In this document: positions 1-5,206 of the stretch, one piece after another | How the letters are laid out: each line of letters opens with the position of its first letter | Position numbering within the stretch: the stretch's first letter is position 1 | DNA from: Bacillota bacterium | GTDB taxonomy: Bacteria > Bacillota > Sulfobacillia > JAJZYS01 > JAJZLH01 | Reading direction: 5' to 3' | Length of the DNA stretch: 5,206 nt | NCBI GenBank assembly: GCA_021850485.1 | Contig: JAJZLY010000031.1 | Location: 1 to 5,206 of the forward strand | The notes under the pieces: generated by a model | Database searches by the model: none | What the model was told of the DNA's origin: nothing | The model's input: the letters and a program-made list of their open reading frames with translations, nothing else | Translations under genes and position numbers: made by a program

Positions 1-268
1 CGTAACTGAACCACGATCCGCTCTTTTGCAACACCTTGGTTTCAGTTCCGAGGTCGATCAAGCTCCCCTCGCGGGAGATGCCGTGGCCGTACAAGATGTC
101 GAAGTCAGCCACCCGAAACGGCGGTGCCACCTTGTTCTTGACCACGCGGACACGCGTCCGGTTGCCCACCACCTCGGTCCCCTGTTTGATCGCCTCGATG
201 CGGCGCACATCCAGGCGGACAGACGCATAGAATTTGAGCGCCCGCCCACCGGGCGTAACCTCTGGGCT
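1..268 (-). other. RecA C-extein (first 89 residues; rest beyond the window)
   Basis: It starts with the +1 Ser of the splice junction where E. coli RecA has Asn205, then completes loop L2 (PEVTPGG) and the strand [14 protein letters not shown]. It continues through KNKVAPPF and DILYGHGIS to SGSWFSY at the left edge. The missing part would be the end of the C-terminal domain and the acidic tail. Confidence 0.94.
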
Positions 269-1840
269 GTTGTGCACAATCACACCGCTGGCCACAAATG
301 TGTGGCTGTGCTCTACCTGAATGTCAAACCGCTGTTTGGAGCGGACCGCCACGTCCGCCTCAATCTCGAGCACCGGCCTGGGCACCACCTGCCAGCCACC
401 AACCTGAGCCGGCGGCTCTTTGGCCTGCCCCGGCTCGGGCGGCATGAACGGCGCCACCAGCTTCAGCAGCCGAGCCAGCGTCGGACCGGCAACGATCACC
501 TCGGAGGTCAGCCCAAAAATCCGCATCTCGCAGTCCAGGCCAAAGCGCTCTGTCAGCGTCTTGGCCAATGCAGCCAAGCCCTCCGGGGTCAGGTAGGCGG
601 GCAGGACTAGGCGGTCTCCTTCCAAGCGGCCGCCTTCAATGGTCCACACAGCCAGGGCCAGTGCATCCAGGCGCTCGAAAAAGGCCGGCTGATAGGCCCG
701 TCGGCCCAGATCCGCGATCTCGTCGCGGAGCAGCGCCAAAGGCAGGGCCGGCGTTTCCAGATGAGCTCGGGCCCGGCTCAGGCCAGGGGCGAGCCGTTTC
801 TCCCAGGCCAACAGCCCAAAGTCTAGACGTGGACTGCGCACCCGAATCGCACCGCCGTCCGTGTGCAGCCTGCCCCCAGCAATCAGCCAGCCGCGGGCTA
901 CTGACCACATGGCATCGCCGCCGCCTTCGGCGACGGTCATGACCAAATCCCCAACTTTCAGTTCGCCCGCCGGCCGAAACCCGTCGGGCGTGAGCACGGG
1001 ATGGTTCGGGGTGAGCCGCAGCCGATTGGGATCCGCCTTGCCGCTGGCCACCTTGATCTCCACGAAGGACGCGGCCGGGCCGTTTCGGTACCAGCCGACA
1101 ATCTTGCCTTCTCGCACCTGGCCGCTTTGCCGGTCAAAGGTAAGAATTGGCGGTGACTCGTGTTGGTTGACCACACGGCCAATCGGCCTGCGCCGGCCGT
1201 CCGCTTGAACCACCGGTGTCTCATAGTCCAGACAGCCGAACATGACGCCGACTTTTTCTCGAATCTGGTTGATGAAGATGGCGCAGGTATTGCTCTTCGA
1301 GATCACACCGGTCAGTTTGCGCAGCGCTTGGGACATCAGTCGGGCCTGCAGGCCGACATGAGAATCTCCCATCTCACCCTCGATCTCAGCCCGCGGCACC
1401 AGGGCGGCCACCGAGTCGACCACGATCACATCGATCGCACCGCTGCGCACCAGGGCTTCGACGATCTCCAGGGCCTGTTCACCCGTATCCGGCTGCGAGA
1501 TCAATAACTCGTCCACATTCACACCGAGGTTTTTGGCATAAAGCGGGTCCAACGCATGCTCAGCGTCGATGAAGGCAGCAGTTCCGCCCTGGCGCTGGGC
1601 TTGAGCAATGATGTGCAAACCGACAGTGGTCTTGCCACTGGATTCCGGTCCGAAGATCTCTACCACCCGGCCGCGCGGCACACCGCCAACGCCCAGGGCG
1701 TTGTCCAAGACAATCGATCCGGTATGGATCACATCAATGTCATAAAGATGGGCCTGGTCGCCCAATTTCATGACGGCTCCCTTGCCGAATTGCCGCTCTA
1801 TTTGGGCAAGGGCCAGTTCCAACGAGTTATTTCGGTCCAC
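1..1840 (-). CDS. recA: RecA recombinase precursor with in-frame intein (C-terminus beyond left edge)
   Basis: RecA forms ATP-dependent filaments on single-stranded DNA, carries out strand exchange and triggers LexA-type autocleavage. The frame is open from a GTG at 1840 to base 1, which I checked codon by codon. The GTG is chosen because the protein then begins [21 protein letters not shown], a normal RecA start; AAAGGCGG lies just upstream, and an in-frame TAA lies 16 codons upstream with no ATG, GTG or TTG between. Walker [10 protein letters not shown] is at residues 64-72 and Walker B VIVVDS ends around D142-S143. The L1 region [12 protein letters not shown] and the stretch [14 protein letters not shown] follow. 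After residue 202 a 322-residue intein interrupts loop L2. RecA resumes with [20 protein letters not shown] and runs to GSWFSY, whose Trp aligns with E. coli W290, so roughly 60 residues are missing at the edge. Seen: 202 + 322 + 89 codons. Identity as RecA is certain; spliced activity is inferred. Confidence 0.96.
269..1234 (-). mobile_element. Intein in RecA loop L2 (322 residues)
   Basis: This is a protein-splicing element that excises itself from the RecA precursor and joins the two exteins. Its boundaries come from RecA homology: the N-extein ends VGVMFG and the C-extein starts SPEVTPGG, which abut in ordinary RecA proteins. Block A starts with the nucleophile Cys1 ([10 protein letters not shown]). 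Block B is [15 protein letters not shown] at residues 71-85, with the T75-x-x-H78 pair. Block F is [15 protein letters not shown] at 302-316, including D304 and H311. Block G is GVIVHN at 317-322 with the His-Asn pair, followed by Ser as the +1 nucleophile. All residues expected of a class 1 cis-splicing intein are therefore present. The central part resembles a decayed LAGLIDADG endonuclease. The insertion point matches E. coli G204/N205 and, from memory, the site used by the Mycobacterium leprae RecA intein rather than that of M. tuberculosis. Base composition is not visibly different from the host gene, which suggests an old or well-adapted element. Confidence 0.95.
431..913 (-). other. Degenerate LAGLIDADG-type homing endonuclease domain within the intein
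   Basis: This covers about residues 108-268 of the intein, between splicing blocks B and F. Two segments look like the paired LAGLIDADG helices. The first is [11 protein letters not shown] (intein residues 113-123, bases 866-898), comparable to the family pattern LIGLLLGDGSL. The second is [10 protein letters not shown] (195-204, bases 623-652), comparable to AIWYMDDGSL. The second is followed by the typical tail pattern [18 protein letters not shown], then a strand and a helix ending [12 protein letters not shown]. In both motifs the residue aligned with the catalytic acidic residue is Gly (AGG for GDG, EGG for DDG). DNA cleavage is therefore unlikely, though the fold may survive for stability. 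The alignment is by eye and the domain limits are approximate. Confidence 0.72.
1235..1840 (-). other. RecA N-extein (202 residues)
   Basis: This is the part of RecA before the intein. It contains the N-terminal polymerisation helix, the ATP-binding core with Walker A (residues 64-72, K70) and Walker B (D142), the catalytic-Glu segment [11 protein letters not shown], and the L1 loop. It ends in the first half of loop L2 at Gly202. Numbering runs two behind E. coli RecA throughout, so there is no insertion or deletion relative to the family apart from the N-terminus. Confidence 0.95.
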
Positions 1841-1917: not shown

Positions 1918-2448
1918 TCAGTCGGCCAGCAAAAAGGTTGCCAGTCGCTCGTAGTGGACACCCTCTGGGCGAAGGTGGCTCTGGTACAAGACGACCGCGC
2001 CGGCACGCAGGCTGATCGGCGGGCGAAGCGGACGTCCTGGCGGCTGCCGACTCCACTCGCCGCGGGCCAAGGTCAAGTGGACCAAGGGTGGCCTAGTCGC
2101 CTCGCGCTCGGACAGCCATGGCCGGAACACCTGTTGCGCTCTGTGGACAGCTGCCTTTGCCACAGAGCTGTCAGAGCAAAGGGCCCACACCCGGATCGGC
2201 GGACGATGGCCAATGGCGCCCACCCGCTGGAAGCTGATCTCCAGGGCCTGTTGTCCCTGGGCATACTCGGCGGCCCGCTCTTGAATAGCCACAGCCGCCA
2301 CGGGCGGCACCTCGCCAAAAAATCCGAGCGTCAGATGCCACATCTCGGCTGGCACCAGGCGGCCACCAGGCGGCGGTGCCAGCTCAGCTTGGCGGGCCGA
2401 AACCTGACCCGCCAGCTGATCGGCAGCCAGCCCCAAAAACAGCCGCAT
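1918..2448 (-). CDS. thpR: RNA 2',3'-cyclic phosphodiesterase (2H phosphoesterase, LigT/ThpR)
   Basis: This 176-residue protein belongs to the 2H phosphoesterase family, whose bacterial members open 2',3'-cyclic phosphate RNA ends to 2'-phosphates and were first assayed as 2'-5' RNA ligases. The N-terminus MRLFLGLAADQLAGQV is the family's first strand and helix. Both catalytic HxTx motifs are present: WHLTLGFFGEV (H38, T40) and VHLTLARG (H124, T126). They lie about 86 residues apart, as usual, and the length is normal. The ATG starts one base after the cinA stop (TGACATG), with GGAG just upstream inside the cinA end, so translation is probably coupled. It is a cytosolic enzyme. The recA neighbourhood is a recurrent arrangement in bacteria, but a direct role in recombination is not known. 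The family assignment is firm; the physiological substrate is not. Confidence 0.92.
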   Translation of the reverse strand: MRLFLGLAADQLAGQVSARQAELAPPPGGRLVPAEMWHLTLGFFGEVPPVAAVAIQERAAEYAQGQQALEISFQRVGAIGHRPPIRVWALCSDSSVAKAAVHRAQQVFRPWLSEREATRPPLVHLTLARGEWSRQPPGRPLRPPISLRAGAVVLYQSHLRPEGVHYERLATFLLAD

Positions 2449-2449
2449 G

Positions 2450-3676
2450 TCACTCCGCCTCGTCCAATACCTGGTAGAGGTGCCACAGAGCGGCCTGGGC
2501 CAGGCGATGGCGAACGTCGTGGCGGTTGTGACCCAGGCGATGCTCGCGCCAAGTCACCCCTGCGCTGCCCGCCACCGCCGTGTAGGCCAGCCCCACCTCG
2601 CCATCAGCCTCCGGTCCGGCCCAACCGCAACTGGCCAGTCCCCAGGTTGCATCGAGCTGGTGGCGGACACTATGCGCCAGCTCTTCTGCCGCCCAGGCAC
2701 TGACCGGTCCGTGGCGCCTCAGCTCGCCAGCATCCAGTGCGCCGAAGTGGACCTTGGCCGAAGCGGTATAGACGATACTGCCCCCGAGGAAGACTTGAGA
2801 CGCCCCGGCTGGATCGCTCAACCGGGCACTGATCAGCCCGCCAGTGGCACTTTCCGATACGGCCACCGTCTGCTGGCGTTGGCGCAGGCGGTCGAGCAGC
2901 ACGCTCTCCAGGCTGACGTCTCCCTGGCCGTAGACGTAGGGGCCGATCAGCGCCATCACCGCCGCCAGGCGCTGAGCTGCCATCTGCTCAGCTGCCGGCT
3001 GACTGGCTGCGTCCGCCAGAATGCGCAGATGGACCTCGCCAAGCTTTGCATAGGGCAAGACGGAGGGATTGGTGGTGGTCAGCAGATCACCAAGCATGTC
3101 TTGCAAGGTGGATTCGCCGATGCCGCTGGTGCGCAGCCAGATCACCTGACGCCCGCCCTCCAGCCGCTGGCGCAAGCGAGGCAGCACCGTTTCACGAAAC
3201 ATCGGTGCGAGTTCGATCGGCGGTCCAGGCAGCGCCACCACCACTTGGCTGTCCACTTCCAGCCACAACCCCGGTGCCGTCCCGCGCTGGTTGGCAAGCG
3301 CCTGGCCACCCACCGGCACGAGAGCCTGCTGGCGGTTCGACTGTGACATCGGCCGCCGCCGCTCGGCAAAGTAGCGCTCGACATCCGCCAGTGCGGTCGG
3401 GTCCAGCTGCAAGGGGCAGCCGGTGGCGTCGGCGATGGCCTGACGGGTGATGTCGTCAACGGTGGGGCCTAGACCGCCGATCAGCACCACCAGGTCAGCC
3501 ACGCGACGTGCTTGCGAAATGGCTGCCACCAGTTGCGAGATCTGGTCGGGGACAACGGTCTGCAGGACCATCTGCACCTTGGCCGCAGTTAATTCGGCAG
3601 CAACGAAGGCGCCGTTGGTGTTCACCGTATCGCCGAACAGCACCTCATTGCCGACTGCGATCACCGCCGCCTTCAT
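2450..3676 (-). CDS. cinA: CinA family protein (two-domain: MoCF-like + NMN amidohydrolase)
   Basis: The 408-residue protein has the standard two-domain CinA layout. Residues 1-170 are the molybdopterin-binding-like COG1058 domain: start MKAAVIAVGNEVLFGDTVNT, GGLGPTVDD at 67-75, NQRGTAPG at 129-136, ALPGPP at 148-153. Family members with this domain hydrolyse ADP-ribose-like pyrophosphates. Residues about 255-408 are the C-terminal PncC domain, which deamidates nicotinamide mononucleotide to nicotinate mononucleotide. Its landmarks are SESATGGL (274-281, conserved Ser276), VFLGGSIVYTASAK (295-308), AGP (353-355), and Arg385 and Arg389 near the end. Two positions depart from the usual motifs: Ala replaces Cys in ESCTGG, and CGWAGP replaces T/SGIAGP. 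The ATG at 3676 is preferred over upstream in-frame starts because the protein then begins at the family start and overlaps the previous gene by only four bases (ATGA). In some bacteria cinA is co-transcribed with recA and induced in competence. Confidence 0.94.
   Translation of the reverse strand: MKAAVIAVGNEVLFGDTVNTNGAFVAAELTAAKVQMVLQTVVPDQISQLVAAISQARRVADLVVLIGGLGPTVDDITRQAIADATGCPLQLDPTALADVERYFAERRRPMSQSNRQQALVPVGGQALANQRGTAPGLWLEVDSQVVVALPGPPIELAPMFRETVLPRLRQRLEGGRQVIWLRTSGIGESTLQDMLGDLLTTTNPSVLPYAKLGEVHLRILADAASQPAAEQMAAQRLAAVMALIGPYVYGQGDVSLESVLLDRLRQRQQTVAVSESATGGLISARLSDPAGASQVFLGGSIVYTASAKVHFGALDAGELRRHGPVSAWAAEELAHSVRHQLDATWGLASCGWAGPEADGEVGLAYTAVAGSAGVTWREHRLGHNRHDVRHRLAQAALWHLYQVLDEAE
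2453..2461 (-). promoter_or_regulatory. Ribosome binding site of thpR inside the end of cinA
   Basis: The minus strand reads GAGGCGGAG and encodes the last codons of cinA (Glu-Ala-Glu before TGA). The GGAG core ends four bases before the thpR ATG. This supports the chosen start and coupled translation. Confidence 0.6.
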
Positions 3677-4782
3677 TGCGGTGTCCAGACCCGGTGGTCC
3701 ACCGTGTGGCGCAAGACCCGATCTTTGATCACGTGCACACCCAATCCCGGTCCCGTTGGCACTTCCAAGCAGCCATCGGCAGTCAGGACGAAGGGGGGGT
3801 CGGCGACATCCTCGGCAAAGTAGCGCGACGTGGCCGCGGTGTCTCCGGGCAAGGTGAAGGCATCGAGAGACGTCAAGGCGACGTTCAGGGCGCGACCCAC
3901 CCCGGACTCCAGCATGCCGCCGCACCAGACGCCGATGCCCAGGCGACGGGCGGCGGCGACTGTCTTCAGCGCCTCCCCCAATCCGCCTAGGCGGCCGATC
4001 TTAATATTCACGATGCGCAGCGCACCGATGGCGTGGGCCTGTTCCAAGATGTGCGCCGAGCGGATGCTCTCGTCCAGGCAGATGGCGGTCTTCAGCTGGG
4101 CCTGCAAGGTGGCGTGGTCGATCAGGTCGTCGTGTGCCAGGGGCTGCTCGATCATCATCAACCCATAGTCATCGAGCGCCCGGAGCCGATCGGTGTCGGC
4201 TAGCGTATAAGCGCTGTTGGCGTCCACCATCAGTGGCACATCCGGCAGGGCCCGGCGCACGTCGCGCACCACATCCACATCGTAGCCAGGCTTGATTTTG
4301 ATTTTGATCCTCTGGTAGCCCTCGCCCAGACGCTGCTTCATCACTTCGACCAGCGCCGCGCTGCTGGATTGGATGCCAATGCTGATCCCAACCGGCACCC
4401 GGGTGCGGCTGCCACCGATCAGCTTGGCCAGCCCCACGCCCTGGCGCTGCGCCGTCAGGTCCCACAGGGCGGTCTCGATAGCCGATTTGGCCATCGGGTT
4501 CAGGCGCACCGGCGACAAGCGCTGGCTCACGGTCTCCAGATCCAAAAGGTCGCCCTTGAGCCGCGGCAAGAGGTGTTCGGTGAGCATCCACACAGCGGTT
4601 TGTGTCGTCTCTTCGCTGTAAAACGGCCCAGCCGACGCCACACACTCTCCCCAGCCGGTATGTTCTCCGTCGGACGCCTCCACCAGCAAAAAGTCCTTCA
4701 CCAGCTCGGTGCCAAACGACGTCTCAAAGGGCGTCAGCATCGGCAGCTTCAGCCGGTAGAGGTCCACCCGCGCCAGCCGCAT
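3673..4782 (-). CDS. menC: o-Succinylbenzoate synthase / N-succinylamino acid racemase family enzyme (enolase superfamily)
   Basis: This 369-residue protein has the full length of the NSAR/OSBS subgroup of the muconate lactonizing group. The N-terminal capping domain (about 1-125) starts MRLARVDLYRLKLPMLTPFE and contains GWGECVAS. The TIM-barrel holds the catalytic residues: K160-I-K162 in RIKIKIKPG; metal ligands D187 (MVDANSAYT), E212 (MIEQPL) and D237 (CLDES); and general acid/base K261 (VNIKIGRLGG). All have the spacing known from the Amycolatopsis enzyme, two residues behind it. The family dehydrates SHCHC to o-succinylbenzoate for menaquinone and/or racemises N-succinyl amino acids; sequence alone does not separate the two. 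The GNAT gene directly upstream favours racemase, and no other men gene is visible. A run of seven C bases on the coding strand (3793-3799) is crossed without loss of frame. The stop overlaps the cinA start. The symbol menC denotes the family and does not prove the reaction. Confidence 0.9.
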   Translation of the reverse strand: MRLARVDLYRLKLPMLTPFETSFGTELVKDFLLVEASDGEHTGWGECVASAGPFYSEETTQTAVWMLTEHLLPRLKGDLLDLETVSQRLSPVRLNPMAKSAIETALWDLTAQRQGVGLAKLIGGSRTRVPVGISIGIQSSSAALVEVMKQRLGEGYQRIKIKIKPGYDVDVVRDVRRALPDVPLMVDANSAYTLADTDRLRALDDYGLMMIEQPLAHDDLIDHATLQAQLKTAICLDESIRSAHILEQAHAIGALRIVNIKIGRLGGLGEALKTVAAARRLGIGVWCGGMLESGVGRALNVALTSLDAFTLPGDTAATSRYFAEDVADPPFVLTADGCLEVPTGPGLGVHVIKDRVLRHTVDHRVWTPQ

Positions 4783-4786
4783 CGGC

Positions 4787-4795
4787 TCACCTCCT
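4787..4795 (-). promoter_or_regulatory. Strong Shine-Dalgarno of the menC-like gene, built into the end of the GNAT gene
   Basis: The minus strand reads AGGAGGTGA, a near-perfect anti-16S match, ending four bases before the ATG at 4782. The same nine bases encode the final Arg-Arg and the TGA stop of the upstream gene. This settles the start codon and indicates coupled translation. Confidence 0.85.
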
Positions 4796-5206
4796 GCTAA
4801 ATAGATAGGCCGAGGCAGCGCCCCTGTCCCGCACGGCCAGAGCGCGCAGACCCGCTGCGAACAGTGGCTCTACCGCCTGTCGAAAATGGAGTTGGAGGGC
4901 CCTGGCCCGCTCCAGATCCGTTGCCTTGATGGCCTCCATGTCCTTCGGGATCTCCACCCAGATCCCCTCATCCGGGGTCTGCTGCGGGGCCTTGCCCAGA
5001 CAGCGATCTTCCACCAGCGGATGGTCGAGCTGCCACTCCACCCAGAAGCGATCGCTGTCCAATCCCCAGTTCAAACTGTCGCTCATCGCGCCGTAGCAAT
5101 TCACGATCAGCCGCGTCGCCTCGCCACCCAGGACCTCGAGATTAAACAAGGCGTTGAGCCGACGCAGGGGGTCGTAGGTCCAGGCCATCCGCCGATAGCC
5201 CTCAGC
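4787..5206 (-). CDS. GNAT-superfamily acyltransferase, COG3375 type (N-terminus beyond right edge)
   Basis: This is the C-terminal 139 residues of a protein whose start lies outside the window. The frame is open at the edge (AEGYRRMAWTYDPL), so the internal ATG at 5188 is not the real start. The sequence WTYDPLRRLNALFNLEVLGG, then VNCYGAMSDSLNWGLDSDRFWVEW, matches my recollection of the predicted acetyltransferases of COG3375, in which the final GNAT strand and helix are followed by an extra C-terminal region. The acyl-CoA-binding motif A would be upstream and cannot be checked. Homologues are frequently encoded beside NSAR/OSBS genes. In Geobacillus kaustophilus a GNAT enzyme next to the racemase succinylates D-amino acids, so an N-succinyltransferase is the favoured role. 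The gene ends five bases before the next start, and its last codons form that gene's ribosome binding site. The family call is fairly secure; the substrate is inferred. Confidence 0.78.
   Translation of the reverse strand, partial: AEGYRRMAWTYDPLRRLNALFNLEVLGGEATRLIVNCYGAMSDSLNWGLDSDRFWVEWQLDHPLVEDRCLGKAPQQTPDEGIWVEIPKDMEAIKATDLERARALQLHFRQAVEPLFAAGLRALAVRDRGAASAYLFSRR

Follow-up and report, generated by a model that had tools for sequence, protein, structure and literature searches.

The recA gene in the window, by which we mean the whole 5,206 nucleotide stretch of DNA that was analysed, is interrupted in frame by an intein of 322 residues. This intein contains a LAGLIDADG endonuclease domain which is predicted to be nuclease-dead and which is conserved across the three sequenced species of the genus; the loss of both catalytic Asp residues from it, in all three, is a new observation. 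Purifying selection acts on the dead domain. It is probable that the intein is splicing-proficient, has passed beyond homing and is inherited vertically, and that the inactive endonuclease domain is kept as a structural part of it.

The open reading frame list for the window includes a minus strand frame of 613 open codons, running from 1840 to 2, which encodes RecA with the in-frame insert (Table 1). The insert is preceded by VGVMFG and followed by SPEVTPGG, it starts with Cys and ends with VIVHN, and the next residue is Ser. The host genome (1.61 Mb, 97% complete) has one copy of recA. When the joined exteins are aligned with solved RecA proteins (E. coli and mycobacterial structures) there is no gap at the junction, and the insertion point directly follows the residue that corresponds to Gly204 of the E. 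coli protein. We take this residue to be inside loop L2, with limits of about 195–209. In RecA filaments L2 contacts single-stranded DNA, and we reasonably infer that the unspliced precursor is inactive. The original prediction was of an intein splitting loop L2 of RecA; its coordinates proved exact, the frame is uninterrupted, both intein terminal profiles score above cut-off, and the L2 position is borne out by the Gly204 alignment. The minus strand, the endonuclease domain and the loss of its catalytic residues were absent from that prediction. The minus strand gene order is cinA, thpR (2'-5' RNA ligase family), recA (window positions 1918–3694 for this stretch), and orthologues of cinA and thpR adjoin recA in both other species of the genus. 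An open frame of 139 codons at 4787–5206, at the window edge, has no Pfam or NCBIfam match.

Table 1. Features of the interrupted recA gene, in window coordinates.
Feature	Position	Strand	Details
recA with in-frame intein	2..1840	-	GTG start at 1840; C-terminus beyond window end; ORF, TIGR02012 RecA 502 bits
N-extein	1235..1840	-	RecA residues 1-202, upstream of the insert at VGVMFG
Intein, 322 aa	269..1234	-	Frame residues 203-524, Cys1 to Asn322, +1 Ser
Hint domain, N-terminal part	920..1234	-	Intein residues 1-105; blocks A and B: C1, T75xxH78
Inactive LAGLIDADG endonuclease domain (predicted)	383..919	-	Intein residues 106-284; Gly for both catalytic Asp (G120, G201)
Hint domain, C-terminal part	269..382	-	Intein residues 285-322; blocks F and G: D304, H311, H321, N322
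C-extein (SPEVTPGG...)	5..268	-	88 codons inside the window

The splicing domain is recognised by TIGR01445 (intein_Nterm, 34.1 bits, cut-off 24.5), TIGR01443 (intein_Cterm, 24.1 bits, cut-off 15.6) and PF14890 (intein splicing domain, 37.4, cut-off 35.8). The residues predicted for class 1 splicing (C1, T75, H78, D304, H311, H321, N322 and +1 Ser) are all where they had been placed, and the T75xxH78 motif of block B is conserved in all three species. The AlphaFold2 model of the intein has a mean pLDDT of 89.7, and its Hint part superposes on the splicing domain of the Mycobacterium tuberculosis RecA intein with a Z score of 24.7 and an rmsd of 1.4 over 138 residues. The segment thus has the marks of a class 1 intein, namely a nucleophile at position 1, TxxH in block B, HN followed by Ser at +1, and the Hint fold.

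The precursor very probably splices, because the genome has no recA other than the interrupted one and no region examined is more constrained than the exteins. With a single copy, an insert that did not splice would be equivalent to a recA null, and the strong constraint on the exteins (omega 0.008, the tightest of all regions) suggests that the spliced product is used. Splicing would follow the class 1 route, with an N-S shift at Cys1, transfer to the +1 Ser, cyclisation of Asn322 and ligation to give ...VMFG-SPEV.... The intein would remove itself from RecA soon after translation, presumably with no need for a signal.

The domain inserted into the splicing domain matches PF03161 (LAGLIDADG_2) with 25.5 bits, just over the cut-off of 25. 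In the AlphaFold2 model it is a complete two-helix LAGLIDADG fold inserted in the Hint domain, and its fold matches include I-SceI, I-WcaI and I-DmoI over about 185 columns, and also WhiA. In active LAGLIDADG enzymes each of the two helices ends in an acidic residue that serves in catalysis; here the predicted fold is present and the acidic residues are missing. In the alignment the first helix reads G-S-L-L-G-D-G in relatives and G-W-L-I-A-G-G in the window's genus, the second reads W-x-M-D-D-G/A in relatives and W-T-I-E-G-G in the genus, and both catalytic positions are Gly in each of the three species. Both Asp residues are kept in 17 of 17 distinct full-length viral inteins and in the intein of G006, a genome of the same order. 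A second genome of the order, G012, has lost the second catalytic Asp of its intein and kept the first, and in G065, from elsewhere in the class, the first motif is intact and the sequence ends at the contig end beyond that motif. The YKL motif of the relatives is also missing in the window's genus. The net charge of the endonuclease region is +1, -4 and 0 in the genus compared with +8 and +6 in the nearest relatives, with other relatives varying widely; the lower positive charge is consistent with lost DNA binding, although it is not proof of it. The loss of Asp residues from G006 through G012 to the window's genus resembles the graded decay expected by the homing-cycle model (PMC3229294, PMC1654191).

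The genus is represented by three genomes (G000, G001 and G002), which are all the genomes of the family that were sampled and which are metagenome-assembled and 96–97% complete. An affiliation with Chloroflexota had been considered for the window; the records do not support it, as contigs of the same genus are deposited as 'Bacillota bacterium'. The other two species contain the same 322 residue intein at the same codon, 85% and 76% identical to the window's, so that all three species are carriers and an empty target site was not seen in the genus. The insert is free of frameshifts and stops in the window and in both further species. An artefact, in the form of a frameshift, a mis-assembly or a pseudogene, has a negligible probability: the genomes are all metagenome-assembled, but three separate assemblies hold the same uninterrupted insert at the same codon, and it is under strong purifying selection.

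Among the 15 genomes of the order, G006 and G012 contain larger inteins at the same site (361 and 358 residues), and recA is free of inteins in G003, G004, G005, G008, G009, G010 and G014. Across the class, where 146 of 154 genomes have a RecA match, there is one further carrier at this site outside the order, G065. The intein-free RecA proteins of G010 and G014 (L034 and L038) have Asn in place of Ser directly after VMFG, and an Asn at +1 would not serve as the splicing nucleophile for an incoming intein. A scan of the phylum for the junction pattern found only the three known genomes among 398, in a search that misses variants such as GVLFG and a sample that does not include G006 or G012. 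In a maximum likelihood tree the six inteins of the class form one clade (98/95), separate from the viral ones; the stem leading to the window's genus is long (2.73), and the placement of such long branches is uncertain. One order holds intact (G006), half-decayed (G012), dead-but-kept and intein-free states. The intein probably homed into the L2 position of recA in an ancestor within the class, and would then have been fixed in the genus and lost its endonuclease activity when both LAGLIDADG Asp residues changed to Gly. Since then it would have been inherited vertically with recA.

The same insertion site is used widely by viral inteins. When IMG/VR was scanned for the codons of the junction, 64 DNA stretches were retrieved, and in 29 of them a RecA-like gene is interrupted by an intein directly behind VMFG. 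Both junctions are present in 24 of these viral contigs, and 20 of the 24 are distinct, including three distinct mini-inteins of 157–187 residues that occupy the same junction and have no endonuclease domain (L047, L062 and L077). It had been predicted that the site is also occupied in a distant lineage. This is true but ordinary, given that 29 viral contigs and three other genomes in the class have inteins here, since occupation of a conserved homing site in distant lineages is to be expected. The best identity of the window's intein in phages is 23.5%, the best plasmid match is about 30% identical (with the G006 sister intein as the query), and the window's intein has no close counterpart among the sequenced inteins of phages and plasmids. 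The RecA inteins of Acinetobacter plasmids were considered as occupants of the same site and rejected, as they are inserted three residues downstream (GVMFGDPT/C...HN/CTPGG). An example is the plasmid NZ_CP018333.1 of about 110 kb, with RecA at 2344–4542; similar matches occur in 138 Acinetobacter plasmid records.

Selection on the intein was estimated by a GY94-type likelihood for the three species. Regions were fitted jointly with shared neutral branch lengths, because separate fits reached the branch-length bounds owing to synonymous saturation; as synonymous sites are near saturation, the absolute values of omega are rough, and the sample is of three species only. Omega is 0.053 for the dead endonuclease region (range 0.05–0.06) and 0.044 for the splicing domain (range 0.04–0.05), and equality of the two is not rejected (2dlnL 1.1). 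Neutrality of the dead domain (omega = 1) is rejected with a 2dlnL of 653. The neighbouring genes cinA (0.079) and thpR (0.080) both have a higher omega than the dead domain. By the Nei-Gojobori method the dN/dS of this domain is 0.10–0.21 with dS near 1 among the three species, which corresponds to a dS/dN of 4.8–10.4. At this divergence there are no indels over the 322 aligned residues. Overlapping genes were considered as a source of the constraint and rejected: antisense frame 0 has 4 stops in the window. In G001 and G002 this frame is open along the full length of the intein, and no other overlapping frame is open in all three species.

Constraint of this strength might be explained if the endonuclease were still active through other residues, for example E200 beside the lost Asp, so that homing maintained selection. 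The dS/dN of the domain does fall among the values for active VMA endonucleases of yeast, unlike that of most inactive ones (PMC1508164). However, Gly at two positions that are Asp in every one of the full-length viral relatives, together with the loss of the conserved YKL motif, argues against catalysis. Synonymous divergence is similar for the intein and the host genes, so there has been no recent homing, and the genus offers no empty target among its carriers. We regard continued endonuclease activity as very improbable. The favoured reading is instead that the domain would be a folded, non-catalytic part whose disturbance would impair RecA folding or splicing, and that DNA cutting is not the reason for its retention. 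Two observations weigh against this structural reading. Inteins without an endonuclease domain occur at the same site in phages, so the domain is not a general requirement for splicing there, and a simple folding constraint leaves unexplained why the RecA domain is more tightly constrained than that of another intein which these genomes carry.

The second intein is found in all three genomes of the genus, has 338 residues and interrupts an apparent B12-dependent ribonucleotide reductase (NrdJ) with the junctions NPC/...WVHN/CSEYLF. It starts near 163731 on G000:C2 and has counterparts in both other genomes (L131–L133). Both LAGLIDADG Asp residues are lost in all three species and the frame is intact; the loss of homing is therefore genus-wide and not specific to RecA. 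Omega is 0.097 for the dead domain of the NrdJ intein and 0.011 for its own splicing domain, a constraint about 9 times weaker. Dead endonuclease domains are thus generally under constraint in the genus, and that of RecA is the tighter relative to its own splicing domain. In G006 there is a mini-intein (NPC/VTGDTL...VVHN/CGEQ; C90, L116) in an apparent ribonucleotide reductase, at a site different from the NrdJ one.

The original prediction also proposed that splicing could act as a switch on the SOS response, with unspliced RecA unable to promote the self-cleavage of LexA. Insertion into a loop that contacts single-stranded DNA fits this proposal. However, none of the genus's three genomes, at 96–97% completeness, has a match to LexA (TIGR00498), and Peptidase_S24 (PF00717) had no match in them either; the same LexA search was positive in 11 of 12 other members of the order, and 9 of the 14 genomes used as controls also gave a match. 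SOS boxes show no excess in the window, including near recA (5 weak matches where 2.5 are expected). With LexA and S24 peptidases missing from all three genomes, we regard the SOS switch as very unlikely. The apparent loss of the SOS repressor has occurred in a lineage with smaller genomes (1.5–1.6 Mb).

Splicing could still be conditional and independent of LexA, if RecA were kept inactive by the intein, together with the vestigial endonuclease domain, until a signal such as single-stranded DNA, temperature, redox state or a metal was received. There are precedents: the Pyrococcus horikoshii RadA intein is activated by single-stranded DNA and heat, with a hinge formed by the loop that remains of its former endonuclease (PMC5790916), and for the RecA precursor of M. 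leprae splicing has been reported in mycobacteria and its absence in E. coli (PMC5874633). The unusual constraint on the RecA domain relative to the NrdJ one points the same way, and the loss of LexA from the genus makes some other control of RecA conceivable. On the other hand, the sequence names no signal, the reduced positive charge of the endonuclease region argues against a DNA sensor (with the proviso that relatives vary widely in charge), and the shared fate of both inteins in the genus means that no story specific to RecA is needed. We consider conditional splicing unlikely. A more elaborate form of it, in which the nuclease-dead L2 intein became a LexA-independent post-translational damage switch after LexA was lost, with the non-cutting LAGLIDADG domain as its regulatory part, seems improbable. 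If splicing did depend on a signal, RecA would be controlled after its translation in a lineage that lacks LexA.

A non-nuclease member of the LAGLIDADG fold is already known in WhiA (DUF199), one of the fold matches of the model; it is a stand-alone regulator and does not belong to an intein. The inteins of G006, G012 and G065 share the window's site and clade, and of these the G006 and G012 inteins differ from it in length and in the Asp residues that they keep. Phage RecA/UvsX-type inteins share the identical junction, GVMFG/C...HN/SP(E/D), and are 18–27% identical to the window's over the full length, and their full-length distinct members keep the Asp residues that it has lost. The best solved relative by both sequence and fold is the M. 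tuberculosis RecA intein (PI-MtuI; PDB 2IMZ, 3IFJ), with which it shares the RecA host and a class 1 splicing domain. The contrast with PI-MtuI is that the window's intein has lost its endonuclease residues. The M. leprae RecA intein (RecA-b), which we take to share the junction of the window's intein (GVMFG/SPET), has endonuclease motifs that keep their Asp, and PI-MtuI presumably sits further downstream. The M. tuberculosis and M. leprae RecA inteins occupy different places (PMC5874633).

Under the homing-cycle model an endonuclease that has died should decay towards a mini-intein or be lost cleanly, but here the domain is conserved without a single indel, and why dead endonuclease domains persist is directly testable in this intein and its sister. 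Yeast VMA inteins with an inactive endonuclease are likewise full-length, with a domain that is dead yet not deleted (PMC1508164); pairs of these have a dS/dN of mostly about 1–3, well below the values for the window's domain. The RadA mini-inteins of P. horikoshii and T. sibiricus are also found in a RecA-family recombinase and have a vestigial endonuclease region (PMC5790916). They are inserted at the P-loop and their domain is reduced to a loop, whereas the window's intein is in L2 and keeps the whole domain. RecA inteins at the L2 site are an already known kind, of which the window's appears to be a new one that has come late in the homing cycle.
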